Part shown: one piece after another, positions 1 through 59,064 of the stretch
Position numbering within the stretch: the first letter of the stretch is position 1
How the letters are laid out: the number at the start of each line of letters is the position of its first letter
From: Ectocarpus siliculosus
Taxonomy: Eukaryota; Sar; Phaeophyceae; Ectocarpales; Ectocarpaceae
DNA length: 64,000 nt
NCBI GenBank assembly: GCA_000310025.1
Contig: FN648574.1
Coordinates: 6,694 to 70,693, forward strand
Reading direction: 5' to 3'
The notes under the pieces: generated by a model
What the model saw: the letters and a program-made list of their open reading frames with translations, nothing else
Told to the model about the DNA's origin: nothing
Databases searched by the model: none
Made by a program: the position numbers and the translations under genes

Positions 1-514
1 GGAGTTTCGGAAAAGGGGCCCCTTCCTCTTCCACCCGGGGGTTTCTCCCCCGAACGGAAAGGGGGGGGGAATACCCTTTCTAAATTCCGGGGGGGGGGGG
101 GGGGGGGGAAGCACGTCTGACGGTGAGACACGGAAAATAGACGATTCTTCGGCGCGTTGTCCCCGTCGTGAGGGCAAGAGTGGCGCAAGAGCGTTGGTTT
201 TGCCTGTACGCCCGGCCACATGAGCACGGCAGAAATACCGTACGCTTGAAAAACGTTCCGGGTGCCTGATGGGCGGAGCAAAAGCAGGCTGCATAGAGCC
301 TACAAGTGCTGGTGCAGCTTCTGAGTTCCTCCGAGGGCACATTTCCAGAGCTCCGGGTCTGTCTGTCCCACAACGCGATGCCTACAAGGCACGCCGATAC
401 AGACGAAAAAAAAAGGCACATCAACGAGCAGCGCCGAAAAACCAAAACAACACACGCACACAAACCGCATCTACATACATCGAACGCTATAAAAGCTTCG
501 GTTGTGTTTTTCAC
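1..514. other. No exon recognised; low-complexity G tracts
   Basis: The expected last exons of the minus-strand MFS gene (TM9-TM12) are not visible here in any minus frame. The first 110 bases contain long G and C homopolymers, including about 18 consecutive G near 91-108, which may be poor-quality assembly. The remainder is likely intron. Confidence 0.4.
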
Positions 515-3500
515 CTGGACGCTCGTGGCCGCCCGGAGCGTGCGGACGGGGGAGCGAGCGGCCACCCGCAGCAGCGCGGCCGGAGAGAAGTACCGCGGCA
601 AGGCCAGCGCGGCCACCGCGATCGCCAGAACGACACCCGTGTCTGCAGCCGAGAACCCGAGACCGCCGTGACCCCCTGCTTCCGCAAAAAAAAAAAAAGG
701 TCGCGAAGCACGGAGCGAGGGTGGGCCTAACGCGGAAAACGCTTGGCCTAAGAAGCCTAGGCTGATCTGGGACGCACGATGGCTTGAGGAAGGGAAATTC
801 GCGCTGCAAGGGAGACCGAGGATGACCATCGACGACAACACCAAGCAGTGTGCATGCGGTCGCAACCCTTACAGACATAGTCGGGAACACAAAAACGCGA
901 GCATGAAGTGGGGCCTGCCGTGGGTCGACTTCGAAAGTTGGGCTGCTCTGCAGCAAAAGCGGCGACGGTACCCAAAACGGCGTCGTTGGAACCGTCTCGT
1001 CGAGAGCTTTTCCGATAACGCATCACTTGGTCGTCACGGATTTATCGAGCCTCAAAATACCAATCCAGCTCATGCGGCATCGTACGCCGCCTACGGTATG
1101 CCATGGCCCACTGCCTTCCTTACCAGGGGATAGCATCCACAACGGCAGCAAAGCCTCTGTGGCCGCTTCCAACGCCACCCACACCAGGTGCAGCGCCAGA
1201 ACCACCGCTGCCGTAGTCTCGCCGCCCTCGCTCCCCCCCGGGGGCGGGCCGTCCATCCTCCACGTCCTGACAATGTCGCCGCCGCCGCCGCCGCCGTTGC
1301 CGCCGTTGGCCCCGGAGGAGAAAACGCTCTTCGCTCCGCCCCGCGCCTGCTGCGCGGCTTGGATGGCGCGGATCAAGTTCTGCTCCGAGTTGTCCTTGTC
1401 GCCGTCGCTATCTCTGGCGGTTTCATCCTATGGTGCGGCCGCGGGAAGGTCGTCATCACGAAGCGTGAGATGGGAGCATGTACAACGGAAGCGAGAGCGG
1501 AGAGATGGCACCCCCACTTTTCAGAGCTCGATCGCTCCGCAACCAAAGGAGGTGCGGAAGAAGCCCGATACTTGTACGCCAAGTCCTCGACGACATGTCT
1601 CCAAAACCACCGTGTTTGATGTTGGCACCATCTTGGTTGTGGAGCAATCGAGCTTTGAAAATCGGTCTAGGGGGGGTGCCGTCTCTCCGACTCTTACGGA
1701 ATACCACGGTGCGGTATACGGTACGGTACAGACAATCTTGGTTGTGGAGCAATCGAGCTTTGAAAATCAGTCTGGGGGAGGGGTGCTATATTCTCGCCTC
1801 TTACGGTAGTTGTGCCGCCTCGGAGACGAGGTGTACATGGCACTTAGCCGAACGGTCTAGCAAGACCTACGGCAGGTGTGTAACTCCACCAAGCACCAGA
1901 GGCATTACGAGGCAGAAGGCACTAAGGCACCAATCGACGTGACCAGGCAATCCCTTTGCACCGCCTTCGAGAAGCGGGCAAAGGGGCCAAACACTTCAAA
2001 GAGACGGCCGAGCACAGGCACACAGCAGTATCCGATAAAAACACGCATACACACACAGACCGCAACACATCCGTGATGCAGCCGCCCCGCTTACCTGCGC
2101 GCCTCCTGTGTCTTTGCGCCTTGTTCTCTCGCCGACACCACCGCTGCCGTCGTTCCCTGTCGCCCCGCTTCGACCCCTCCCCTCGCCCTCCATCACCCAC
2201 ATCCGTCGGGCCGTGTCGTACCGGAATTTGTTCTCCACACCGAGGTATGCCCTAGTGGCGCCCCCTCGCATCCTTCGCACTGCCGACGCGAACCGCTGGG
2301 TCACGCCTAGCCCCCCGGTGCTGCCGCCGCCGTCTGCCGATGGTCCCCTCTCGCCGCCGTCCCCGTCTTCGCCGCTCCCGGGACCAAAGCTCGCCCCTTT
2401 TGCGTCGCGACTAGCGCCGCCGGCGGCGGCGGCAGCAGAGACGGCCGAGCTCTCGCGCGGCCGCGGGGACGCCTGCAGCGCGCTGCCTTCCTCGCCATCG
2501 CGAAGGCCATGGCTACTACCCCCGCCGCCGCCGCCGCCAACAAATTCACCAGGAATTCCACCCTCCTCCATGACCCCGCTCTCACTACCAACACCGTCGC
2601 TATAATCCGGGACAAGATGATCGTCGTCCCCGTCCCCGCTAGCGACACTGCCAACCGCCGACCCATCGCCGCTCCTTTCGCCGTCGCCGGCATCGGACCG
2701 CGAGGGTGCAGCCCCTTCTGGCGGCGGCGGCAACGACGTCGGACCCAAGCTAGCTGCCAGTCTACACAAGGCCATCTCATCCGTGGACTCTCCCAGGGCT
2801 TGCGGGCTATCACCGCCGTATTCCGAGGGTATCTGGCACAAAGGGGGGCAAGACAGACGCAGAGCAGTTTCGCACAACCGTGAGGCGTGTTATTTCCAAA
2901 ACCCTAGCCTTGACATCCCGTCTAGTCTTCCGGCCAACATCCTTGTGAGCAGTTCTGCCTTACAATGCTGAATCAACTCCAACATGAGGGGGGTGATTCG
3001 TACGCCAAAGAGGCAGCACGCTTGGGCTCGAAACATTTGGTAGTCACAGCAGTATTCAAACTACAAATACCAGTAGGCCGAAGACAATTGTAAATAACAC
3101 GTGAAATACATGCCTGCAAATGTCACAACGAAAGCAGTGAGTCCGTTCGTTCTTGCTGTTGCTTGTGTTGCCGCCTCTATCCAGGGCATCATATTCCCAA
3201 CTCTTCACAGTCTAAGTCATGCGCTTTCCTCCGGGTTCACAAGGCACTACCAATGGCCCTTACACAGAGCAAGCCCCAAACCGAAGAGCCAAAACCCAAA
3301 ACAACCAACACGGCACTCAAAACCCGTACCGGTATCAGATGCTATGCAGCAGTACTGCTTCGTTCGGCAAAGTCACGTCGGCCACAAACACACAAACACC
3401 TGCGAAGCGTCCACGTGCTCCAGCAGCGTCGGCAAGAAGTTCTTCCCCCTGATCTGCAGCTTCGCCTGGGTCCCCGAAGACAGGACTCCGGACACCCCCT

Positions 3501-6500
3501 TCCAGATGCCCGCGAACCACCACGGGGCGTTCACCACCAGGATGCGGCTCTGGCGCTCGGGGTAGTGCTTCTGCATCACCTCCGCCGTGGCGGCGAGGTA
3601 TCTGACGGGGGGGGGTACGCAGAGTGGGGAGGGGGAGGGGTATGTTTTGTATGCCTTAGTTGTTAGACCATTGGAGGGGGGGGTCTTGAAGCAGATCTAC
3701 CGGGTACGGCGCGTGGGAGGGGGGTGGTCGACATCATGCACGGCCATTGATGTAATGCTATTAACAACACCGTTGTTGCTGCAGCACCGGGCAGGAAATA
3801 AGCACACCAGGGTTGTGCCGACAAATAGCTTTTGGGACCAAATCAACTTAGCGCAAAGAGAACCAATGTATGTCAGATGATAGGTAGGTAAACGCCCGCC
3901 GCTTTCGCCCCGCAACAAAACGTCCGCCTAAATAGCCCTGAGCAAGTACCTTTTGGTAGCAGCCCAAGAAAGCGATTCCCAAAGACCAAACAAACGCTCA
4001 ATGACGTCTGGGCCAACGAGGGCGTACCCGAGCTCACCAGATCTATCCATCTGGGGAAGCCAGATACACACCACTCCGTACATTAGGGACCGTTCGTATT
4101 CTGATGCGATTTGTCCCAATGGTCCCTATATTTCCGAACCGTGTGGTATATATACTATAGGCTCACTTTGTAACGACCGTGTTGTTCTTGATGGTCGCCA
4201 GCCGGAGCTCCCCGACGTCGAGCACGGTCATGAGCTTGGCATCGTCGTCGTCCTCGTCGTTGAGCTTGCTGAACACGAAGTCGTTGAAGAACGCGTAGTG
4301 CATCTGGCGGTGTCGGATAAGAAACGAAGGACGGCAGACGACGGGAGCACAGGTTGGGAGAGAGGAGATGCAGCACACGCGACCCACGCTGCTGTGGCGC
4401 TGAGCGGAGCGTAGAGTAAGGATAGCGTGGCAGCACTGAGCGAGACAACAGGCGGATACCCCACAGTTAAAGACGTCTATACACAAGATGTGCTAAGCCG
4501 CTATATAGGCAGTTAGGACTGGGTTCTGGTAGGATTCGGAGTGAGACGAACGATAAGACGAATGTCAGAAGGCCGGGCCCACCTCCGAGGGAGCAACTCG
4601 CTCGCGCGATACCGCCGCATGCGTCCAAACCAACTGCTTCTTGCTCTTGATGCGACGTACATCGAACTCGCATCGACAACTCCATCATATTCGATTGTGC
4701 ACAACACACAAGACACGGGGTCTTGGCCAACACACACCCCACCCTGCCCATGAAAGAAACCCCAACCTGCATATCGAACGGGGAAACGCCGGCATCCGCG
4801 AGGCGGCCGAACTGCATCTTCCCCGTTTGCTCGTAGACCACTACTTCGCCCTTCTTGGAACGGCCGTGCACGAAGTAAGGGTAGCACTGCTTGATGATGT
4901 CCAGGGTCGGCTGGGGGGTGGAAAGCGACCGCTCGGCTCCTGTGTCCGTTCGCCATCTTCGACAAGCAGCAGGGCGACAAACACACGAGCTGAGACAATA
5001 GAACAGGGATGTGACCATGGACTGGTACCTAATATTGCAGAGGGCTACCGCAACTATCGCCACGTTTCTAGCAAGCTATCCTAGAAAGAAGTAGGACCCC
5101 TGCGAACGAGGTGCCGCTTGCGAGCGTTTGCACCAAAGACAAACACAAAGTTGACCAACTCACTTGACGGTTTCGTCCCACATCGCCTTCGCGGCGACCG
5201 TGTTTCCCTTGCAGGCGGCCAGATACCTTGCGCCAAAAATACGGAAAATAGAAGGAAATCAACGAAAACGCGGGGTGGTGATAAGGGGCCACAAGCATGT
5301 TGGTGTGGCCACACGTCACATGTCACCAGAAACACGCGACTAGAAGAATATAGGACTCGTACACGCTGAAACCGCTTCTTCTCATGGACGTGAGAGCGGT
5401 TCGACGTTTTCCCTTGTATTCAGGCTCCCTCCATCATACTGCTGTACTATCTACCGGTCGTGTCCGAAAATACCAGCAGTTTCAGTGAATCTGATGCCCA
5501 TTCTGCAGTTGCAAGCGCCCAGGAAAACGGTCGCAGGCGCGTGGAAAGAACCGAATCAGTTCCAACCGCTGACACGAGAACATACTCGAGACCCAAAGCA
5601 ATGAAATGCAAGCACACCCAATCCGCCCTTCCCACTCACACGCCCTCCCCTCATCTCACCTCGAAGACACGGGGCAATCAGCGCCACCCCCCGCCCCTGC
5701 CTCCACGTCAGTTCTCTCGCCCGGCTCAGACGCCGATGACGACGGCCCAGGGGCGTCAAGAGATCCACCAGCCAGCAAGGGCTCCTCCTCCCCACCGTCC
5801 TCCCCCTCCCCAAACGCCTCCTTTCGCCCTGCGGAACCCCCCTTACCATGCCGGAGGCGGCGGCCGAAGACGCTCAGGGCCCCGGTTGTTCGGCCGCACC
5901 CGACGACGGTTTCACTTTTTATCGCGCCGTCGTTGCCGGTGCGCCGCCAGGCCACCACGGCGACGGACAGCACCACCGAGCAGGCGGCAGCGCACGCCAC
6001 GAACGCGGGCTTGTCATCGAACCACGACGTCCCCTCCCCCCCGTCCTTCGCCACCACGCTGGATCCCCCCCCCCCTCCCCGGCCGTAGCACAGGCCGCCG
6101 ATCAGGAGGCCGAGCACCAGGCCCAGGTGCCACCCGGAGTCCGCGCGCCTGAGTCCGGCGGCGATGGTGCTGGAAGAGTTGCTGCTCAAGTCTCCCCCCT
6201 TGGAGGAAATTTCCGAGAAATGTCTCGATCCCGGGAAAGCGCTGCACCGCTCGCACGAGGAGGAGCGGGGGCAAGGCGCCGACATGGACAGTGCGCCGCT
6301 GCAGAGGGCTCCCGTGAGGATACCACCCAGTGTTCGCGCCCAAAAGAACTGAAGTCGGGGCGAAGGGGGGGGGGGGGGGCGGGGAGCGCAAGCAAACATT
6401 ATCTCCAGCAAGACGTGCTGCTGTCTACATAGCCTTAGGATCATCACCGTCCGTTTCTTTTTCTTCCAGCAACTATTATTAGACACAATCGTTCTCCTCG

Positions 6501-8630
6501 ATCGGCTTGTTCACTGGCTGTATCTCACCCTCGTTTCCGTTACGCCGGCCAGCCCAAGCCACGCCTGGGTGATGGCCACGCCGATCACGCCGACCGCAAC
6601 CACCACCCCCAGGCTGACCCGAGAAGCCGCGGCCGGGCCAAGCACTCTGCCGGCGGTCCTGCCCGCCAGGAACCCCGCAAACGCCTGCCCGAGGTGGAAC
6701 AAATGACGCGGTCATGGTGCGAGGCATGGGAGAGAGCCACTGTTGTCACGTCGGAATGAAGGCGACGGGACGAACAAAAGAGTCGGATAAGTACGGACCG
6801 CACATCCGTGCCGTCATTTTCAGAATGGCTGCCGATGTTTCTCCCCCTTGTCCAGTGCGACGCACCCGATGTGCTTTCTCCCCGACCCGCGCGATATATC
6901 GCTGACCCCGTACATTGGTGGACGCTCAACAAGATCGCCCCTCCCTTGCGTGTTGCGCATGAAGGACAAGGGTGTGTTATTTGCTACCTTCGCGACGCAA
7001 CGAGTTCAAAGTGGGCGGCTCCGTACGCATGCTACTGGTGCGCTGTCAACAGGCTCCGCGTGCGCATCGCCATGCAGAGATGAGAAGGCAACGAGAGAGA
7101 GATGCTGGGGGGGGGGGGAAGGGAATGAAGGCGGGAGGGATGGTGCACCTGAAAAGTTCATAACCTTCGGTGACAAACCTCCAATGAGTGTTGACCGGCG
7201 GGGGTAGCGCGACGAAAATGATTTCTTCGTTGCTTCCACATTCTCTTTTCTCGACTGATGTCGACTCTACCATCGCTATCCCATGTGTGGTAGCCCGGTG
7301 CTATGCATATTTCTATTCTAGGTAGATATCTCCGTGATCATTGGTGGATGGATACCAACAGTTTCGCGGTCTCGTGCTTAAAAGAAGCGAAGCCCTGATG
7401 GCAGACCTGCCGCAGAACAAACACTGCGACACCCCAATGTTTTCAACAATATGCAGTTCGTTACTGTACTCTCCCGGAGCTATGCTACGGAGCTATCCTA
7501 CGAACATGAATAGTACTTTTTTCTTTTTTGTGTATTCTTGTCGGGTGCAGTCTATGTACATGTCACGCGAGATAGGCAGCAAGCAGTTTGTGGAACTAAA
7601 GGAAATTGCTCTCCACCTTCGTTCTGCAGAACCTTTTCGTCAGCCGTTCTCCGGTGCGGAATCCGAATAATGGCCATGCGATGCCGCAAAAAATGAAACA
7701 AAGGCTGTCACTACTCGCTGAGTTACCGATTTGGCGCGCAATTTGCTCGAGATTCACCAGAGGAGCCGCAATTCCGCAATACCTAATGGCATGTCGCGAT
7801 CGAGCGGGGTTGGTGGGTGTTTTCCGTGCGACTACCCCGATTGTGCGACAATCCCGCCACGGCTACATACATGATACCGGTACCCATTCTCCTTCGGCCG
7901 CCCAACAACTTAAATGATGTCTCCTTCGGAGTATCAGTTTACGGCAAGGCCGGTGAGGTCACACGAGCTCCTTAATGGGTAAGTGTGCGTCGTGCGAGAG
8001 GGAGGGAAGGCAAAGCGACCTACTTGCATACGTGCAGCAGTACAGCTGCTGTGCTGTAGGCCTTCTCTTCGAATTATTTACTACACGAAGTGTGCAATCC
8101 ATGGAGCAAACGCGCAAGGGACTTGCCACACGCCGGTGCACCGATCACTGTTCGATGGAAAATAATACTGTGTGTGCACGTGCATGTTGTGTGCAGTATT
8201 CGGAGCTGCGGAGGCAGGCCACCCGGGAAACAGATAACAGCAATTTGTGGTTTGACTGTACACAGCGGGCTTGACAGCTGGGCTGTGGGTGCTCACCACA
8301 CCACCATTTCCGTTTGGCGGCAACGGTTGAAGAAGAATTATTTCCACACACGAACGGCAGTCATCTTGGGGTCATTGCCCTGCTTCCACCGCATACCTGA
8401 CTCCACAATCTCGCCACGACAGCCCAGTGCATCGAAACCTCATTGCCCATGCCATCCTTATGCGCCTGTGCCTGGAGAGGATCGACATCTTCTGCCGTGG
8501 TGAGGTAGGGATGGACAAACTCTAGATGCGACAGCAGCAGGAGCGGGCCCATGGGAACAATGAAGTTTGTGACAAGTCCATCCGTGAGGGTCGCGACTGA
8601 CCAGGTCGCATGCCTTCGGCAAATGGCCAT
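515..8630 (-). CDS. MFS transporter with a CRAL-TRIO (Sec14) domain in its central loop; 3' end outside window
   Basis: Ten exons, high to low coordinate: 8630-8397, 6684-6529, 6348-5660, 5226-5164, 4956-4767, 4303-4167, 3601-3400, 2832-2095, 1394-1124, 675-515. All junction phases agree and give 947 open codons. Residues 1-360 hold MFS TM1-TM6: TLTDGLVTNFIVPMGPLLL, then AFAGFLAGRTAGR (loop 2-3 signature region), FFWARTLGGILTG, GLVLGLLIGGLCYGR and a TM6. Residues about 361-575 read as CRAL-TRIO: AAKAMWDETVKWR, CYPYFVHGRSKKGEVVVYE, LMTVLDVGELRL, QKHYPERQSRILVVNAPW and IPSEYGG. A Gly/Ser-rich linker follows to about 803, then LHLVWVALEAATEALLPLWM and GGLGFSAADTGVVLAI, the TM7-TM8 pattern of ZIFL-like DHA1 transporters. 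TM9-12 were not found in 1-514. The start ATG at 8630 is the first in frame; the acceptor at 1394 is chosen for phase, with 1379 as an alternative. A membrane carrier that senses or handles lipid is inferred; the substrate is unknown. Confidence 0.72.
1507..1785. repeat. Three-armed foldback/direct repeat inside an MFS-gene intron
   Basis: A 48-bp arm beginning TTGGTTGTGGAGCAATCG occurs at 1633-1680 and again at 1738-1785, a 105-bp period. An inverted, diverged copy lies at 1507-1546 (GCTCGATCGCTCCGCAACC). The unit sits within the intron between the 2832-2095 and 1394-1124 exons. This could be a MITE-like foldback element or a local duplication. No coding content is evident. Confidence 0.6.
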
Positions 8631-26658: not shown

Positions 26659-27522
26659 TCAGTCACACAAGTTATGACACGCCTGGATTGCGATAACACC
26701 AACCAGGTTTCCGGTCGCGGGCGACACCCCCAGCGCCAGAAGTATCACGTCAGAGCCCATATCCTGATCGGATAACTCAGCATATTGCCTCCGGTCCGTA
26801 TGTATCAGAACATAGAAAACTCGCTGCTTCAGCACGTACTGCTTCAGGGAGGTGAGCTGTGCCCGGCTTCGCAACGTGATCTCACGGTACGCTTCAGCTC
26901 CAATGTCACCTTCATCGGCCTCCGGGTCAACTACTTCAGATTCTGCCTCCGCTACCGCCTCGGCTAAATCTTCGGAAGTCGCGAAAATGTACTGTTTTTC
27001 GTCGTCCTCGTGAACCTCGTCGGCGCACGCGAAAACCAGGTAACCCAGGTAAGGCAGGGGGGCGCCGCTACCGTCGTCATCCATGTCGGTGATGGCGCTC
27101 TTGAAATTTCCGGTCGCCTTGAGGTCTGCGACAAGCGTGGCGGGGGTTGGTAGGTTGTCCTCGTCGTATCTTGACTTTTTACCTCCGCCGGCTGCTGCAG
27201 CTGCTGGAGACACCATGAACCTCCGGAGTGGGGCGATAGCCGCCCCGCCGGCCTCGAGCCCTTGGAGGTTCAACCCGCGCAGAAAATCGACGTCAGCGAC
27301 TTGCTCTGGTGAAAGCGCCTCGCGGTTTTGATCGTCGTTTCCGTCACCATTGAAAAGCACGCACGCGTGTTCCCCGGCGAACTGTGACACGAATGTGTAG
27401 ATCGGTAGATGGCTGCCTCGCGCGACCAGAGATTCCTCGAGCGGCCACCACACCGGAGACGGCGGGTCTTCAGGGAGGACGGGTGGCTCACCACCGGCTT
27501 CGTCGACTACCAGGGCCGCCAT
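26659..27522 (-). CDS. Unrecognised 287-aa protein, family copy 1
   Basis: An uninterrupted ORF from ATG (27522) to TGA, convergent with the LRR gene. I do not recognise the family with confidence. Features: Pro/Trp-rich start (PPSPVWWPLEESL), an Ala/Gly stretch near residues 110-118, an acidic middle (DEVHEDDEKQ, VVDPEADEGD), and a C-terminal block LKQYVLKQRVFYVLIHT then LALGVSPATGNLVGV. The C-terminal alpha/beta pattern vaguely recalls nuclease A inhibitor (NuiA-like) domains; this is a weak guess. No signal peptide or membrane segment is seen. Three relatives lie at 43186-44035, 46350-47381 and 55898-56761, all minus strand. Conservation of the whole frame in copies 1 and 4, despite decayed surroundings, argues that it is a real gene. 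Homology with copy 3 continues upstream of the ATG, but copy 4 has an in-frame stop there, so the MAAL start is preferred. Confidence 0.7.
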   Translation of the reverse strand: MAALVVDEAGGEPPVLPEDPPSPVWWPLEESLVARGSHLPIYTFVSQFAGEHACVLFNGDGNDDQNREALSPEQVADVDFLRGLNLQGLEAGGAAIAPLRRFMVSPAAAAAGGGKKSRYDEDNLPTPATLVADLKATGNFKSAITDMDDDGSGAPLPYLGYLVFACADEVHEDDEKQYIFATSEDLAEAVAEAESEVVDPEADEGDIGAEAYREITLRSRAQLTSLKQYVLKQRVFYVLIHTDRRQYAELSDQDMGSDVILLALGVSPATGNLVGVIAIQACHNLCD

Positions 27523-28439
27523 CAGAGGCTTTGTTCGCGGCCTGAAGCTGCTCTCGCCTGGGAGCGAGTGGGGAAAATGGTGAGGGTGGGGGGCGGATGT
27601 ACGCTTGGGATAAGGTGGTAGCGGTAGTCATGAACAGAGCAGTGGAAGCGTGATACAAACAAGACCCGTACACCATTTTGGATCTACGACCAACCACGTG
27701 CTCCTTGGTCGTCGTGGAGACAGGGCATTGTTAGCAATGTCTATTTAGTGTAGAAGTCGCCACATTTAGCTCATGCTCTTTGCAAAGACCCCTCTGGGAT
27801 GACGCCGTTTCGAACCCCAAGGTGTCTTCTCAAGCGCACTGGAAGTATTCTTGGTTGATGACATTTAGCGATGTATTTAATTTACAACCCACGCACGACG
27901 CCATACAGAACTCCACATAGAGCGCGGGAAGGTATCAAGGCGAGGACACCCGGGGATTTTGGACGTGAGGCAGCAAGCTACTTTGGTACGTTTCAAATAC
28001 ATACGCCTCTCAGCAACCTAGAAAAACTCTTTTCGAGCCATTGCTTTGGACGTGCTTGTCAACTCTCTGCTCTCGGACCTTCTAGTCAAACTCCTTTCAA
28101 TGTCACCAGCTGGTTTGGTGACAGTTTTTATTGATCACGTTTGACAACACAAGGCGGAACTCAAGCATCCGACAGTGAGGAATCACCCGATCGATCGATG
28201 AAGAGTTTCTTAGAAACCAACAGAGAAACACAGAAGAATATTCGTTCGAGATAGAGCGGACGGGGGGCGCAGAAGCAGAGGAATGTGTCGACCATGAAAA
28301 ATTGCCCGTCGGGATTGCCAGGTAGTGGACTGTAGGTTATGATGTGGAGTGTACAGCAGTACTGTAGTTGGCAACTAAGTAAATACCACTCTGGCCTACA
28401 ATGTAAGGGACATTTCATGGAACAGACAATATCTCTGAC

Positions 28440-28510: not shown

Positions 28511-28616
28511 AATTATTTTTTTTCGATTTTTTCTGCTTGTTTTTCCTGGCCCAAAGTAGCAGCTCAGTTTTCCTTTGTCCCATTTCCTCCGGTAATTTGG
28601 CGGAGGAAGAGAAGAG

Positions 28617-30716
28617 ATGGCGAGGGAGAAGGACATGACGGAGAGGGAACATGGGCATCTATCGGAGAAGAATGATGCACCGGCAAGAGTAATGGCTGCC
28701 GGGAGAACGTCTACCTGGGCAGCTGGTGGAGCTGGTCTCGGTACACAACGGGTGAGCATGATGAATGACGGAAATTGTGCGTTGAGCGGCTACAGCAGCA
28801 GTCGCATACCGCCCAAAATCCCGAAAGATTCAGCGAAGGCCGTGAACTGGTTGCGGAGATTGCGGATTTTCCTGGCTAGCGAGGGTTTGGAGCAGACGCT
28901 TGAAGACACCTATCCCACTGGCTATGTTCCTGTCATCAGCTGTTTGGATTGCATATATCTGAACCGGGTTCATGGTGCGGCGCTCGTTACGGCACACAAG
29001 CGGGCGTGGGGATATCTGTTGGAAGCAACCTGCGGCACGGACATTGAAGAACGGTTGGCTGCTTGCGACTGCGTCCCTGAGGCGTGGAGGGTGATCCGCG
29101 AATGGGTTTTGCCTACTTTCGACGCCGAGAAGACATTGCTTGTGCGACGGTTGGAGGCAGTTGAGATGTCCCCTGGCGAGAACCCGAAGCTTTTCTTTGC
29201 CAGAGTTGATGGCATCATCAACATCATGCGAGCTGTCGGCATTGAAAAATCCGAGCGGGAAATCGTCCACATCATTGTTCGCCAGCTTTCGCCCGAGTAC
29301 GATGTCGAACGCAAGTCTATCCTGGCCGACCCCACCATTCCCCGAGCGAAAGTGGAAAAAGTTGTTCGCACGGCATACGCTGACAACGTCGAGATCAAGG
29401 AATTGGGCAAATCGAAGGCGGTCGGTGGTTTGGGGTGCGGTCATGGCGGCGTCGGTCAGAAGGGGAAACAACGGCGGCGGCAGCAGCAGCAGCAGCAACA
29501 ACAGTGGGTTCATCCACAACCACCACCTGTACACCACCCACCTCCTAATTTCCCCACGTGGGGATCTGGGGGGCTCTATGACTGTGGGCGCAACGCCGTG
29601 TACCCGCAAGAGGAGTCAGCTCCGCCGCCAGGCGCTCCGATGGGTGCCGTTCATCAGTGCGTGAGGTGCGGGAGGCATGGACACTCACTCGGCGACTGCA
29701 ATGCGCCACGACGCTTTGAAGGCCACTGCACTGCCTGCGGTGAGTATGGTCATCGGCGCCGCATGTGTTGCACAACCGGCCGCATGCAACAGCACGTGCA
29801 TGTCGGTGATGGAGAGGGTCTCAACGCGAGTGGCAACGACCCTATGCCGTACCAGCAGCGGAAGCGACGACGCTGGAGGAGGCACAGGCACAGGCATCAG
29901 CCGGAGTCGCTCCTCCCCTTTGCAGATGGAGCGGTGGCATGGGGCACAGCAACTGCTGTGGGAGCGGCGACCGGTGGTGGTGGTTTCCCCGCTACGGTGG
30001 CGGGGGGAACGGCCGCGGCGCAGGCACTCGCGGCTGGAGCGGCGGCACCGGAGGCAGCAACGGCGGCGAGAGCGGGGACCCCCGGCAACAGAGTCTTCCC
30101 CGCGGCGGCGGCTGGGGGAACGGCCGGGGAGCAGGCACTTGCTGTTGAAGCGACGGTATCAGTGGTGCCACCGGCGGCGGCACCGGCGACGGATGAACTC
30201 GAAAGCATGAAAGAAGAGCTTGCTGACATACGGAGGCAACGGGGGGAATTGGCGGCCAAGAAACCGGCACTGCATGTGCAGCCGGGCCCACCACTTGTGT
30301 CGTCAGCAGGCGTGGCTTCAGCAGCGGAAACAACGGTGGGGACGACGACAGGTATTGGTGTTTTCCCCGACTCGTCGATGGGGGGAACGGCCGGGACGCC
30401 GTCAGCTGCAGGAACGGTGGCACTGGAGGTTTCGTCGACCTGCGGTCAGATACCCCCCGCCGTATTAACTGGGGGGGCGATCGCAGTGCCCACATCAGCA
30501 GCTACACCGGCACCAGCAGCGCAAGAAGCGGAGGACGCGTGCGATGAGGATGGCTGTTGGTTGGACAATGGCGGCGAAGGCGGCAACAGCAACGGCGGCA
30601 GCGGCGACGGCAGCTTCGTGGCGTTGTCTGCGGGTGCGGGTGCGGGTGCGGGGCATCCCGGCGCCCATCCGACCGTGTACAATGGTATCTGCGTGGTGCG
30701 GGACGATGGGGGGTAA
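28617..30716 (+). CDS. Copia-like Gag polyprotein (UBN2-type) with two CCHC zinc knuckles; no pol
   Basis: A 699-residue uninterrupted ORF from ATG. Residues about 65-265 follow the Copia Gag/UBN2 pattern (AVNWLRRLRIFLASEG, AWRVIREWVLPTFDAEKTLL, VEMSPGENPKLFFARVDGII, EREIVHIIVRQLSPEYD). A Gln tract follows. Two zinc knuckles, CVRCGRHGHSLGDC from residue 348 and CTACGEYGHRRRMC, fit CX2CX4HX4C exactly. Residues about 430-640 are an Ala/Gly-rich tail with three degenerate repeats of the form VFP-(4 to 6)-GGTAG. The ORF ends before any protease, integrase or RT, and no such domain is visible in the following 5 kb. It is therefore probably the capsid gene of a non-autonomous LTR retrotransposon. 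I could not find a matching LTR pair. A G-rich tract at 31,095 may be the polypurine tract. Confidence 0.75.
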   Translation: MAREKDMTEREHGHLSEKNDAPARVMAAGRTSTWAAGGAGLGTQRVSMMNDGNCALSGYSSSRIPPKIPKDSAKAVNWLRRLRIFLASEGLEQTLEDTYPTGYVPVISCLDCIYLNRVHGAALVTAHKRAWGYLLEATCGTDIEERLAACDCVPEAWRVIREWVLPTFDAEKTLLVRRLEAVEMSPGENPKLFFARVDGIINIMRAVGIEKSEREIVHIIVRQLSPEYDVERKSILADPTIPRAKVEKVVRTAYADNVEIKELGKSKAVGGLGCGHGGVGQKGKQRRRQQQQQQQQWVHPQPPPVHHPPPNFPTWGSGGLYDCGRNAVYPQEESAPPPGAPMGAVHQCVRCGRHGHSLGDCNAPRRFEGHCTACGEYGHRRRMCCTTGRMQQHVHVGDGEGLNASGNDPMPYQQRKRRRWRRHRHRHQPESLLPFADGAVAWGTATAVGAATGGGGFPATVAGGTAAAQALAAGAAAPEAATAARAGTPGNRVFPAAAAGGTAGEQALAVEATVSVVPPAAAPATDELESMKEELADIRRQRGELAAKKPALHVQPGPPLVSSAGVASAAETTVGTTTGIGVFPDSSMGGTAGTPSAAGTVALEVSSTCGQIPPAVLTGGAIAVPTSAATPAPAAQEAEDACDEDGCWLDNGGEGGNSNGGSGDGSFVALSAGAGAGAGHPGAHPTVYNGICVVRDDGG

Positions 30717-46349: not shown

Positions 46350-47381
46350 TCAGTCACACAAGTTATGACACATTTGCATTGCCATAACACCGACTAGATT
46401 TCCGGTCGCGGGTGACACCCCTAGCGCCAGAAGTAGCACATCGGAGCTGAAAGGTATTCCCCCTACCACAGTACTGGTAAGTCTATTGACCCGTTCCGTA
46501 TGTATCAGAACATGGAAAACTCGCTGCTTCAGCACGTACTGCTTCAGGGCGGCGAGCTGTTCCCAGCTTCGCAACGTGATCTCACGGTACGTTTCAGCTC
46601 CCATGTCACCTTCATCGGCCTCCGGGTCGACTACTTCAGATTCTTCCATAACTATCGCCCCTGTCAACTCTTGGGAAGTCGCGAAAAGGTGCTGTTTATT
46701 ATCGTCCTCATGAACCTCGTCAGCACACCGGAACACCCCGTAGCCCAGGTAAGGCAATGGAGCAATACTACCGTCGTCGTTCATGTTGGCGATGGCGCTC
46801 TTGAAATTTGCGGTCGCCTGGAGGTCTGCGACTAGCGTGGCGGGGGTTGGTAATTTTTGCTCGTAGTACCTTCGCTTTTTTTTCCCCTTGCCACGCTTTT
46901 TCCCTCTGCCATGCTTTCTGCGTCTGCCAGCTAGTGTGGCTGCTGGAGACACCATTACGCTCCAGAGTGGGGCATCATACGCCCCGTTGGCCCGGAGCCC
47001 TTCGACGTGCAACCCGCGCAGAAAACTCACGTCAGCGTCGACTTGCTCTGGGGAAGGTGCCTCTCGGCTTTGATCATCGCTTCCGTCACCATCGAGAAGC
47101 GCGGACTCGTAACCTCCGGCGAACTGCGACACGAAGGTGTAGATCGGTAACCTCCCACGCGCGATCAGAGGTTCCTCGAGCGGCCACCACGTTGGCGATG
47201 GCGGATTACGCGGGAGGACGGGTGGCGCATCGTAGCCTTCTTCGACGAACATTGCCGGTATCAGAGGCCTTTTTCGGGGCCTGAAGATGCTCCCGCCTGG
47301 GGGCGGGCGGGCGGGGAAAACGGTGGGGGTGGGGGTGGGAGGCGTATGCACTCGTCGGTGAGTCAACTGTTGTGCACGCAT
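46350..47381 (-). CDS. Family copy 3 of the 287-aa protein, with a polybasic insertion
   Basis: The ORF is open for 343 codons from ATG 47381. The ATG at 47252 (MFVEEGYDAPP) matches the start of copy 2 and would give 300 aa, so it is the preferred start. All family blocks are present: PPSPTWWPLEEPL, LPIYTFVSQFAG, LPTPATLVADL, LPYLGYGVF, LKQYVLKQRVFHVLIHT and LALGVSPATGNLVGV. It differs from the others by a Lys/Arg/Gly-rich insertion (GRRRKHGRGKKRGKGKKKRR) where copies 1 and 4 have GGGKKSR or GGGRRSR; this could be a nuclear-localisation-like signal. Function unknown. Confidence 0.65.
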   Translation of the reverse strand: MRAQQLTHRRVHTPPTPTPTVFPARPPPGGSIFRPRKRPLIPAMFVEEGYDAPPVLPRNPPSPTWWPLEEPLIARGRLPIYTFVSQFAGGYESALLDGDGSDDQSREAPSPEQVDADVSFLRGLHVEGLRANGAYDAPLWSVMVSPAATLAGRRRKHGRGKKRGKGKKKRRYYEQKLPTPATLVADLQATANFKSAIANMNDDGSIAPLPYLGYGVFRCADEVHEDDNKQHLFATSQELTGAIVMEESEVVDPEADEGDMGAETYREITLRSWEQLAALKQYVLKQRVFHVLIHTERVNRLTSTVVGGIPFSSDVLLLALGVSPATGNLVGVMAMQMCHNLCD

Positions 47382-47399
47382 TGTCTTTCCGCTCTCTGC

Positions 47400-48852
47400 T
47401 GAGGAGAATCTTCTCTCGGACTCTCACAGCGCTGCATTTTGCAGGGACTCGCAGATTAGGCAAGAGCAATATCCGCGTTTCACTTGAAGTAAGAGGGTTT
47501 CCCCATGCCTCACATGCCGCTTTCTCTCGTCTTCAGCCGCGTCTCTCTCGGCCTCTCAGCGGAAATCGGACCAGCCCGGACAGCGGACGCATGAGCAGCT
47601 CGAACTCTGCGGTTTTTGGGGTCAGCCGTTTTTCTCTCGCCTGGGTCGCTCTCCGCAGTCATCTGTGGTCAATTTTTTCCCCTACATTGTTTTGACCCGT
47701 TTCTGGAACGAACCATCCTTCCATTTCACTCCTCAGTTGTTAGACGCCCGTGGCTCTACCGTACCTTCACCCGTCTCATAGATAGGCTTGGTGTTGTTTT
47801 CCGCTGGTATTTGCTTTGAGCAGCGGACACGCAGCTTTCTAGAGCTGTTGCGTGTCGGGGGCTGTGTCCATAGATATTGTGAATCTATAGTCTATCCTCC
47901 TTGCTCCATTTTTTGCCCTCTCTGCACGTGCATAGCTTCGAGGAATACATCGGGCCCACATGGAAAGTCGCGGCCGTTCCATATGTGCGCGTGTTCACAC
48001 AAACATGATGATTTTTTGCGATGGATTTTATTGTGACTTCTCGATCTATTTGCACAATACGTTGCTTAGCCTTGTGAAGGGGATAGGCCATGCACATGCT
48101 ACCTGTGTTAGATACAAATGAGCACTGTCATAGCTGGCTGGTGCCTTCCTACACCACAAGTTCTTCCTCACCGCGTGTCCACCACACCAGGCACGCACCG
48201 AGCAAAGTACTCCTTTCCTCAAAATATTGCCATGAATGGTTCTTCTGTGTTGTGGTACTGCGTTATTCAGTCGATCATCGGCAACTCTCGAACGGCTCCA
48301 CACCGCTGAAAGTTCATTCACATCTTCAGTTGCAGGCGACACATTTACCGTACCCTCCGGACTTGCCCCTGCTCTTTTATGCTGATGTAGTATCTGTTTT
48401 TCACCCTTCTCAAAATATATACCGTCCGTCATATATCCCTCGAGAGCACCCCGGTGGTGGCAGGAAAATCTAGATGCGTATGAACGCCCCGGGGCATTTC
48501 TCCGAGGTAGCGGGGGAACCCCTGGGCGAAAGGTCCTCGAGAGCGTGGTGGGCGTTCTTTTCTTGCCACACATAGACTACATGGCGGGCCTCACGATCTC
48601 TCACATCGAGCAAGCGCACAGCAATCGAGACTGTAATAACGAGGATGCAGGTAAGAAACAAGAGAATGGCGATTGGGCGCCGTTCAGGCTTTGCGGTCAC
48701 CTGGGGTTCACACCTCCACCATCAAGCTACGATTGATTCCAGACCTACCAAAATTCGTTGTCAGTTGGTGCAAGGGAATGCGCGAAACAAATTTCAAGAC
48801 ACATAGGCCTACTAATCGAAAATCGGGGTCCGTGGGAGGGGGGGGGGGGGGG
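47400..48852. other. 5' flank of copy 3; no gene recognised
   Basis: 47380-47470 and 47690-47810 share blocks with 44150-44230/44580 and 56865-56940/57300 (for example AGGAGAATCTTCTCTCGG and GGCTTGGTGTTGT). Beyond 48 kb I see no coding pattern. A G homopolymer of 14 or more bases lies at 48838-48852. Confidence 0.4.
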
Positions 48853-55897: not shown

Positions 55898-56761
55898 TCA
55901 GTCACACATGTTATGACATGCCTGGATTGCGATGACACCTACTAGATTTCCGGTCGCGGGCGACACCCCCAGCGCCAGAAATAGCACATTAGAGCTCATA
56001 TCCTGATCGGATAACTCAGCATATTGCCTCCGGCCCGTATGTATCAGAACATAGAAAACTCGCTGCTTCAGCACGTATTGCTTCAGGGCGGCGAGCTGTG
56101 CCCTGCTTTGCAACTTGGTATCGCGGTACGCTCCAGCTCCCACATCACCTCCACCGGCCGCCGGGTGGACTACCTCATATTCTGCATCCGCTATCGCATC
56201 TGCTAATTCTTCGGAAGTCGCGAAAACGTACTGCTTTTCGTCGTCCTCGTGAACCTCGTCGGCGCACGCGAAAACCATGTAACCCAGGTAAGGCAGGGGG
56301 GCGCCGCTACCGTCATCGTTCATGTCGGCGATGGCACTCTTGAAATTGTCGCCCGCCTTGAGGTCTGCGACTAGCGTGGCGGGGGTTGGTAGATTGTCCT
56401 CGTCGTATCTTGACCTTCTACCTCCGCCAGCTGCTGCAGCTGCTGGAGACACCATGAACCTCCGGAGTGGGGCGTAAGCCGCCCCGCCGGCCTCGAGCCC
56501 TCGCAGGTTCAACCCGCGCAGAAAATCGACGTCAGCAACTTGCTCTGGTGAAGGTAACTCGCGGCTTTGACCGTCATTTCGGTCACCATCGAACAGCAAG
56601 GACTCGTGTTCCCCGGCAAGCTGTGACGCGAAGGTGTAGATCGGTAGATGGCTGCCTCGGGCGACCAGAGATTCCTCGAGCGGCCACCACACCGGAGACG
56701 GCGGGTCTCCAGGGAGGACGGGTGGCTCACCACCGGCTTCGTCGACTACCAGGGCCGCCAT
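55898..56761 (-). CDS. Family copy 4 of the 287-aa protein
   Basis: Open from ATG (56761) to TGA, exactly 287 codons, and very similar to copy 1 (same start MAALVVDEAGGEPPVLP, same end ending in HNMCD). Differences are mostly conservative. Upstream, the frame is closed by a TAG in the position where copy 1 reads on, which supports the MAAL start. It is convergent with the decayed LRR duplicate at 52790-55340, reproducing the arrangement of the copy-1 locus. Its intact frame next to a decayed neighbour suggests selection on this gene or a recent duplication. Function unknown. Confidence 0.7.
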   Translation of the reverse strand: MAALVVDEAGGEPPVLPGDPPSPVWWPLEESLVARGSHLPIYTFASQLAGEHESLLFDGDRNDGQSRELPSPEQVADVDFLRGLNLRGLEAGGAAYAPLRRFMVSPAAAAAGGGRRSRYDEDNLPTPATLVADLKAGDNFKSAIADMNDDGSGAPLPYLGYMVFACADEVHEDDEKQYVFATSEELADAIADAEYEVVHPAAGGGDVGAGAYRDTKLQSRAQLAALKQYVLKQRVFYVLIHTGRRQYAELSDQDMSSNVLFLALGVSPATGNLVGVIAIQACHNMCD

Positions 56762-59064
56762 CAGAGGCTTTGTTCGCGGCCTGAAGCTGCTCTAGCCTGG
56801 GAGCGAGTGGGGAAAATGGTGAGGGTGGAGGGCGGATGTACGCTTAGAGTGAGTCAATGTTATGAAGTGTCTTCTGCTCTCCGTGGAGAAATCATTTTCT
56901 CTCGGGGTCTCACACCGCTGCGTTTTACAGGGACTCCGAGCTCTAATAAAGAAGTTAGGGGACAGTATTCTCATGCCTGTCATGCCGCCTTCCCCTGTTG
57001 TCAGTCCGCTTCTGGGCTGTCTGCTCAGCGGACACAGGACCAACCGGTCAGCGAACACCGGCAGTAGCTCAATAGATATGGTTTGTGGCTCAATTACTTT
57101 TCTCTAGCCAAGGGGCGCTCATCTCAGTTGTTTCTCCGCACTTCTCACGCACTTGTCAGTCGTGATGACACGTTACTGTCGGGCACTTTCTGTAACGGGT
57201 CTTTCACAATTCAGTTGTTTCACGACTAGAAGGAACCGCGGGCGCACTCTTCAAATACTCTGTACTTGTGGCAGTGAGGCCCTTTCCTCTCGGAAGACGC
57301 CCATGGACCCGTTGCTGCAGGACCTCTTCACCCCTCTCATAGTTGAGCTTGGTGTTGTCCCCACCGGCGTGGCATGTGCGTTGAGCCGCGGGGCACCGAA
57401 TGTTCTTTGGCAAATGCCTATGAGCATGTGATTCGAGAGTCTCTCCCCGCTCTTCCTTGTGTGCATTGCTCTCCTAAAAAAAATAAAATTATCATTCCTT
57501 TTGGGCAACTCTCTACTTGAGCCTCCGGCGTTTGTGGTGTGGAAGGTCATCTGGCTCAATATTCTTGTCGTGGTACCTGCTGTGGAAGACTTGAATGATT
57601 CAACGGTGCCCCCATGCTGCGTCAGCCTGTGTAGGGTGTAGGGCACTCTCTTCCCTCTCTGCCTGTCCTGCCTTTGCACTGCGGATGCCATACAAGCCAT
57701 CAACGAGACTCTCTCGTCACTGTCACAACTACGGGCATACCCGGCACATAACTCCGGCTCTAGGAGTTTCCAACAATCAACATGTACAGTAGTATTGGGT
57801 GCTTTCGACGCACACCAACCCCGCGTGCGAAAACTCCAGTAACACGTGCGATACTCAACATGCCACACCCATAGAACACAGTATTTCAACATGTGTACGC
57901 GATGCCGCCTATACTACAACATCTTTCACGGTGCCTCCGGCGCAGTGAGTGTCCCGGAACCACTCGGGGCACTCGGTATCGGTGATGCCGCACACCCGGA
58001 CGATATTACCGATCCCCGCGCGATCATCGTTGTTGGTTTTTATCGCACGGGGTTGCGATATGATTGGCTCGTGCGTTCTCCGGTACACTAACGGCACATA
58101 CATACATGTGCGGGGCCAAAGCACCCGCACCACTTAGCATACGATGCCTGTTGCACGGGGAATTTCGACTACGAAACAAGGCTTATCATATCAACAGGAT
58201 TCGGTGAGACGGTTTACCTTCGAGCTGGCTCGTTTTCTGTCGGTACGAGCACGTGATGTGTTCAAACGTCATGACCTACTGATCGACCAGTTTCCACCAC
58301 GGCCAAATAGGTTGGGGTCTAAGTAGTGCAGATGAATACGATCGTGATGACAATGAATAGAAATCGTTTGGCAGCGATGAAGGAGGAGGAGAGGGAAAAC
58401 CGTAGCGGGAGGACACGACAAAGACCAAGAAGACAGCAATCGACGAGGGAATCATGGCGTGGAAGAGAGCAAAGAGTTTGAGCCACATGACTGGAGAGGA
58501 CCTGCCAAAAAGTAATGGGAATACCCGGCTGACCACAATGAAAAGACGTCAGTGATATATAGTGCGGTGGAGAACACAGAATTTTCGATAGACCACAATG
58601 CGGGACTCTGTGACCGAGCGTCATGGGGGAGTATACGCTATTATTCTCTCCGTTAAAGACGGATACCGTAGCAATAACAGAAGAAAGCTGCGCGTGTTTG
58701 CTATGGCTGCTACTACTTTGGATGCGCGAGAGCGTTCTGCATTACTTTCATCTTCCGATAAAGCGGTCGATGTACATAGATAGATAGCCTCTCTGTATCT
58801 GGGGTATATGATAAAAGACACACACGAAAGCGCCGCAAGATTCTTCTGTCTTTTGGGCACGACGAGGTACACACGACGGGATTTGCGCACTTTGTTTCTG
58901 TCATTCTTCGCTCGCTCTGAGGTTTCTTCCTGCAGATGCGAGGAGACTTTCGCTGCCACCATCACACATCCTTACGTCCGAAGTATCGAAACGGTCGTGT
59001 GTTGCCGCGGGCCAAAGTGATGCGTCGACCATGTTCTGTGCCCACCTAGATTGATCTCCAAAAG
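56762..59064. other. 5' flank of copy 4 and unassigned DNA; no gene recognised
   Basis: 56860-57600 shares blocks with the 5' flanks of copies 2 and 3. Beyond 57.6 kb the short open frames have no recognisable pattern. I could not build a splice chain. Confidence 0.4.

Follow-up and report, generated by a model that had tools for sequence, protein, structure and literature searches.

The gene and its product

We analysed a 64,000-nucleotide stretch of the Ectocarpus siliculosus genome, here called the window (contig FN648574.1, or C119:6694-70693 of the 189-Mb genome). At its beginning lies a minus-strand gene whose predicted product carries a CRAL-TRIO domain of the Sec14 type between two hydrophobic halves. 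The gene comprises ten exons within 8630-515, and its spliced translation runs through 947 amino acids without a stop. All nine introns are GT-AG and their phases are compatible. The ten exons with fitting phases that an earlier note had read from the letters were thus recovered at the same coordinates. We consider it very likely that the hydrophobic N-half, the CRAL-TRIO domain, the long linker and the hydrophobic C-half belong to one gene.

Exon 1 (8397..8630; all exons are on the minus strand) contains the start codon and a first hydrophobic segment with the pattern D-x8-P-x2-P (DGLVTNFIVPMGP, residues 17-29). Exon 2 (6529..6684) adds a hydrophobic segment at residues 101-119, in the region of transmembrane segments (TM) 2-3, without a canonical motif A. 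Exon 3 (5660..6348) encodes the TM4-6 region, with three hydrophobic segments, and leads into the loop. Its last codon is split AG|G, and splicing to exon 4 (5164..5226) creates Arg360 of the RYL motif with which the Sec14-type domain starts (YLAACKGNTVAAKAMWDETV); Lys366 in this exon aligns with Sec14 Lys66. The domain continues through exon 5 (4767..4956; KWR..., YPYFVHGRSKKGEVVVYE) and has its core in exons 6 (4167..4303; TVLDV) and 7 (3400..3601; HYPERQSRILVVNAPWWF), where Glu505, Thr534 and Lys537 align with Sec14 Glu207, Thr236 and Lys239. Exon 8, which in its entirety spans 2095..2832, holds the end of the domain (IPSEYGG), a long Gly/Ser/acidic linker and the conserved motif ATRAYLGVENKFRYDTARRMWVM. 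Exon 9 (1124..1394) encodes SEQNLIRAIQAA, further linker and TM7 (EALLPLWMLSP); an alternative acceptor, with the exon starting at 1379, likewise preserves the phase. Exon 10 (515..675) contributes GGLGFSAADTGVVLA and the TM8 region.

A hydropathy scan called five segments ahead of the CRAL-TRIO domain and two behind it. The linker, residues 564-863, is about 300 amino acids long and mostly of low complexity. GC content at third codon positions is 0.785 over the whole model (0.65-0.94 in single exons) versus a GC content of 0.534 in the introns. Bases 1-6693 of the contig, directly before the window, read N. This leaves the remainder of the gene, with the expected TM9-12, unreadable. We expect the gene to continue past the window edge into these bases.

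The middle of the predicted protein can be assigned unambiguously to the CRAL-TRIO/Sec14 domains, as the earlier note had proposed. Pfam CRAL_TRIO (PF00650) matched residues 404-564 with 83.9 bits (cut-off 22.6; E 1.3e-23). The best solved relative is yeast Sec14 (E 7e-14, phmmer), to which residues 360-564 align up to the GG at the Sec14 end. The alignment begins at Sec14 chain residue 58, in RFLRARKFD. The N-terminal piece of the domain gave no Pfam match to CRAL_TRIO_N.

A second gene with the same order

Genome searches with the CRAL-TRIO domain and the linker motif gave three matches on contig C1, at 3098097, 3098619 and 3099706, arranged as in the window gene; the two weaker ones had E values of 0.1-0.16. 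The three belong to a gene at C1:3096858-3101581 whose five exons (3096858-3097865, 3098058-3098408, 3098616-3098704, 3099114-3099933 and 3100394-3101581) encode 1151 amino acids and end at a stop codon. In its first exon, a single open frame of 408 amino acids covers both six hydrophobic segments and the start of the CRAL-TRIO domain (DIPGRYLRGCAGDPVEAERRWRLTLEWR). The RYL motif, split in the window gene by the intron between exons 3 and 4, is unbroken in a single C1 exon. Exon 4 contains the end of the domain, a low-complexity linker, STVAHLGQENGFQYDSEQHRWVL and SSEDMTVLAIQ; exon 5 begins with AAHH, completing an AIQAA linker, and carries the second hydrophobic half. The window counterparts are ATRAYLGVENKFRYDTARRMWVM, encoded by exon 8, and SEQNLIRAIQAAQ, with which exon 9 (carrying TM7) opens.

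The C1 CRAL-TRIO domain scored 99.8 bits with PF00650 and is 32-35% identical to that of the window gene (BLASTP E 1e-39, 32% over 250 amino acids). The stretch from the linker motif through AIQAA aligned at E 4e-5 (BLASTP). Common to both genes are the LGxENxFxYD motif, the AIQAA linker and LPxWxL-x5-GGLGxS in the C-half. Hydropathy analysis of the C1 protein called six segments on either side, one of which is poly-Ala. The two C-halves align at a z score of 5.2, with none of 300 shuffles as good. By inspection of the protein alignment, the introns inside the domain lie at different positions, which argues that the two genes have long been separate.

In TM1 both proteins have D-x8-P-x2-P near residues 17-31. 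A looser form of this pattern was absent from the first 60 residues of nine K-12 MFS proteins and of ten other K-12 membrane proteins. The pattern was picked after viewing both genes, and it is evidence of a link between them, not of one to the MFS.

The domain order that the earlier note had placed in one protein thus recurs in an independent gene whose first junction is exonic. This makes a mis-joined gene model unlikely. Such an artefact would have fused two or three same-strand neighbours, namely a membrane fragment, a Sec14 gene and an MFS fragment, by a forced model. It could draw on the facts that the window gene model is known from genomic sequence alone, that the membrane halves match no family and that the 3' end is missing. 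It is at odds with the C1 gene, in which the first junction falls inside one exon and the order is kept throughout. It also fits poorly with the conserved linker motifs flanking the second junction (SSEDMTVLAIQ lies within C1's CRAL-TRIO exon) and with the compatible splice sites and phases. We regard a fusion of this kind as highly improbable. Separate or nested genes were likewise judged unlikely given the C1 gene.

Searches with the C1 C-half, and with the C1 N-half extended into the beginning of the CRAL-TRIO domain, found no third copy in the genome; the window gene's own membrane part was recovered by neither, so an equally diverged copy would be missed. The piece with the LGxENxFxYD..WV motif matched no Pfam family. 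The motif may resemble a part of Sec16. A 21-amino-acid consensus matched nothing, nor did Pfam TPR_Sec16, both being run without a positive control.

Relation of the membrane part to MFS carriers

The strongest link to the MFS is a signature in TM7, PLWALS-x4-GGLGW, which lies behind the loop in the ZIF-like branch, and which is present in both the window and C1 genes. A TM7 profile was built on 14 sequences taken from ordinary MFS genes in this genome. It scored 13.8 bits on the window protein and 14.3 on the C1 protein, at the correct position in both, while the best of 2000 whole-protein shuffles reached 11.6. With the C-halves alone the scores were 17.6 for the window gene (shuffle maximum 16.5) and 15.9 for C1 (14.1), and none of 3000 own shuffles did as well. 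The profile reported none of 19 K-12 membrane proteins; the signature is therefore a mark of the ZIF-like branch and not of the MFS generally.

The window TM7-TM8 stretch had a sole match in the genome besides itself, an ordinary MFS gene on C472 (43% over 37 amino acids, E 0.197). This paralogue, presumably ZIF-like as well, shares the TM7 signature (PLWALSTVASGGLDW in C472, PLWMLSPGGHGGLGF in the window, PVWLLAGVEAGGLGA in C1) and, like the window gene, has a long acidic loop between TM6 and TM7. Unlike the window gene, it has motif A and is recognised by MFS_1; its N-half, at 79.3 bits, served as the control for the family searches. In hhalign comparisons of the halves, the top scores were 26-27 on MFS targets and at most 19 on ten non-MFS controls.

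Several results weigh against assigning the membrane part to the MFS. No Pfam or NCBIfam family matched it for either gene in the forms tried. The earlier note had named the segments MFS TM1-6 and TM7-8 and had proposed a profile search of the 947-residue translation. That search found CRAL_TRIO and no MFS family, and what stands of the TM naming is the TM7 signature held in common with ordinary MFS genes, without a Pfam MFS match or motif A. The top hhalign scores carry probabilities of 4-6%, and with the N-half eight of nine single K-12 MFS proteins did not rise above the controls. With C472 excluded, hardly any margin remained: the N-half scored 20.4 against 19.0 for controls and the C-half 16.5 against 18.1. 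A profile of N-halves from seven K-12 carriers and C472 gave 3.4 bits for C1 and 2.6 for the window gene, both below the best shuffle (9.7) and one non-MFS control (4.9). The N-halves of the window and C1 genes aligned with each other at chance level (z score 0.58; 81 of 300 shuffles as good). Furthermore, TM9-12 of the window gene fall in N bases.

Motif A adds to these points. We represented it by a TM2-TM3 profile of 12 sequences that came from ordinary genes in this genome, with which seven of nine K-12 MFS proteins exceeded HMMER's inclusion threshold. The window gene scored -0.6 bits (best domain) and C1 2.4 (whole sequence) or 0.5 (best domain), all within the range of shuffles. The absence of motif A from both genes speaks against an ordinary MFS cycle.

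Other comparisons were uninformative. Compared with single K-12 proteins, the N-halves gave overlapping z scores for MFS and non-MFS proteins (up to 3.0 and 2.5). PHROGs returned one meaningless match for the N-halves (E 0.043), and sequence comparison of the membrane part with the PDB yielded nothing useful. Given this mixed evidence, we call the membrane part MFS-derived, a label that is probably right and leans mainly on the TM7 signature, without counting it as an established member of the MFS.

Other MFS and CRAL-TRIO genes of the genome

A genome search for a canonical TM2-3 exon together with a TM7 exon gave 12 ordinary MFS loci (two each on C472, C11 and C133, three on C16, and one each on C3, C12 and C13). 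None of the 12 shows a CRAL-TRIO match between these exons, on the basis of 20 matches of the CRAL_TRIO profile and 14 of the window CRAL-TRIO domain, with the window gene counted in both. Both searches score the best candidates only and could overlook an insert that has diverged strongly. In the C472 gene (395-402 kb) the TM6-TM7 loop, judged by eye, is an acidic low-complexity open frame.

CRAL-TRIO genes at C6:69-73 kb and C33:1814 kb share with the C1 gene the start RY[LIV]xxxxGDxxEAxRRW, which the window gene retains only in part (RYLAACKGN). They differ in that their exon with RY[VI]xGxxGD stands without a membrane part in the surroundings read. A likely history is that the loop of a carrier gene captured a CRAL-TRIO domain and that the resulting gene was then duplicated and diverged for a long time.

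Two side observations concern these genes. At C472:396473-396884 (minus strand), two adjacent TM7 stretches (FGEIYPLWALSTVASGGLDWTTKQIGQV and FEAVYPLWAISSVGSGGLDWSTKDVGQV) resemble each other but lie in different frames, as if they were alternative exons. Nine CRAL_TRIO matches (C32, C196, C288, C142, C182, C266, two on C50, and C316) cover nearly the same part of the profile, about 95-153, and score alike; they may represent a multi-copy CRAL-TRIO gene family.

Other features of the window

Intron 8 of the window gene contains two identical 32-bp copies of TTTTCAAAGCTCGATTGCTCCACAACCAAGAT, at 1630-1661 and 1735-1766, and an inverted copy with six mismatches at 1518-1549. Copies with two to five mismatches occur at three further places among the loci read, and the whole has the look of a short interspersed repeat.

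On the plus strand, 28596-30716 is a 706-amino-acid open frame similar to copia-type gag (Retrotran_gag_2, E 9.1e-6; its 25.7 bits just miss the cut-off of 27), with two CCHC zinc knuckles recognised by eye. It probably belongs to a retrotransposon. Three long minus-strand frames, at 26659-27627, 46350-47423 and 55898-56791, share the pattern PPVLPx[DN]PPSPxWWPLEE ... CHN[LM]CD and had no Pfam match; as predicted frames, they make up a multi-copy family inside the window.

Ligand and possible modes of action

The head-group pocket of Sec14 for phosphatidylinositol (PtdIns) includes Arg65, Lys66, Asp115, Glu207, Thr236 and Lys239, and the phosphatidylcholine (PtdCho) pocket includes Tyr111, Tyr122, Tyr151, Ser173 and Thr175. 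Glu207, Thr236 and Lys239 are retained in both the window and C1 genes, and Lys66 in the window gene only. Of the PtdCho residues, Thr175 alone is retained, in a neighbourhood where the alignment is gapped. The PtdIns pocket thus appears partly kept and the PtdCho pocket mostly lost. The partial retention suggests that the ligand of the window domain is a phosphoinositide. Three replacements count against this: Arg65 is Cys in both genes, Asp115 is Ser or Ala, and Lys66 is Ala in C1.

MFS carriers work by a rocking of two six-helix bundles around the centre; on the cytosolic side these are connected by the TM6-TM7 loop. The Sec14 fold opens and closes upon lipid exchange. We propose that a single gene encodes an MFS-derived membrane protein, presumably of the ZIF-like branch, with a complete Sec14-type CRAL-TRIO domain in its TM6-TM7 loop, followed by a low-complexity linker with the conserved LGxENxFxYD..WV motif. 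The loop domain would face the cytosol, touch the inner leaflet and take up a phosphoinositide. Whether it is loaded or empty would alter the movement of the two helix bundles, and transport, or some other membrane activity, would then track the lipid state of the membrane. We put this forward tentatively, as a reading of genomic sequence.

Such control of the membrane part by lipid state still ranks highest among the possibilities we weighed, without being more than a provisional choice. Two others gain weight from the absence of motif A in the window and C1 genes. The Sec14 domain might extract a hydrophobic molecule (a lipid, a tocopherol or a carotenoid-like compound) from a membrane and feed it directly to its own MFS-like pore, which would make the protein a lipid or isoprenoid translocator. 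Hydrophobic ligands are typical of CRAL-TRIO members, the PtdCho residues are mostly lost, and the membrane part is far enough from ordinary genes that a changed substrate and cycle might be permitted. The PtdIns head-group residues that are kept suggest phosphoinositide sensing over a new cargo, however, and the linker of about 300 mostly low-complexity residues offers the domain no fixed docking site at the pore. We think a direct hand-off rather unlikely. Equally doubtful to us is a self-contained lipid machine: a single polypeptide whose Sec14 domain, set in the hinge loop of a pore of MFS descent, lifts a specific lipid out of the membrane, and which senses this lipid and translocates it or is gated by it.

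Alternatively, the membrane part may no longer transport and may serve as an MFS-derived anchor or receptor that holds the Sec14 module at a chosen membrane, there to present PtdIns to lipid kinases or to recruit partners via the WV motif. Besides motif A, recognisable MFS sequence is absent from both genes, and the CRAL-TRIO domain (BLASTP E 1e-39) is far better conserved than the N-halves, which give no significant alignment. The relatives at C6 and C33, with no membrane part in what was read, also fit. Conservation of the TM7 signature and of the C-half between the two genes, however, goes beyond the needs of a mere anchor, and we give this explanation a low probability.

Should the domain gate the membrane part or feed it, the gene would offer a directly testable case of a carrier tied to the levels of phosphoinositides or other lipids. 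If the protein is a self-contained lipid machine, it would be an MFS protein whose cargo or switch is supplied by an internal lipid-transfer domain. Since two genes of this genome have kept the layout despite strong divergence, the combination seems to have been under selection.

Comparison with known systems

Yeast Sec14 resembles the window domain in its extent, from RYL to YGG, and in Glu207, Thr236 and Lys239. It differs in that Sec14 is a soluble protein, whereas the window domain sits within a membrane protein, and in that Tyr111, Tyr122, Tyr151, Ser173, Arg65 and Asp115 are altered in the window gene.

The earlier note knew of no MFS carrier with a Sec14 domain in its loop. We found no MFS-CRAL-TRIO protein described in the open literature, subscription papers being mostly, and annotated algal proteomes wholly, beyond reach; predicted proteins of this layout may well sit unremarked in public databases. 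In passages of PMC11481519, the MFS and CRAL-TRIO names belong to separate gene entries. Pattern searches with an alignment of the two CRAL-TRIO sequences gave 45 matches in viral contigs and 73 in contigs of bacteria and archaea, none confirmed as a relative, and these collections are uninformative on algae.

The nearest principle is that of the SPX-MFS proteins (the PHT5/VPT vacuolar phosphate transporters), in which an MFS carrier is fused to a soluble domain for which a regulatory role has been proposed (PMC4821872). As in the window protein, a soluble domain has been added to a carrier. Unlike in the window protein, the MFS part follows SPX (PMC4821872), which places the added domain outside the central loop, and SPX is not a CRAL-TRIO domain. 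A carrier-like protein joined to a ligand-binding domain is therefore a known principle; what is new here is the kind of domain and its place.

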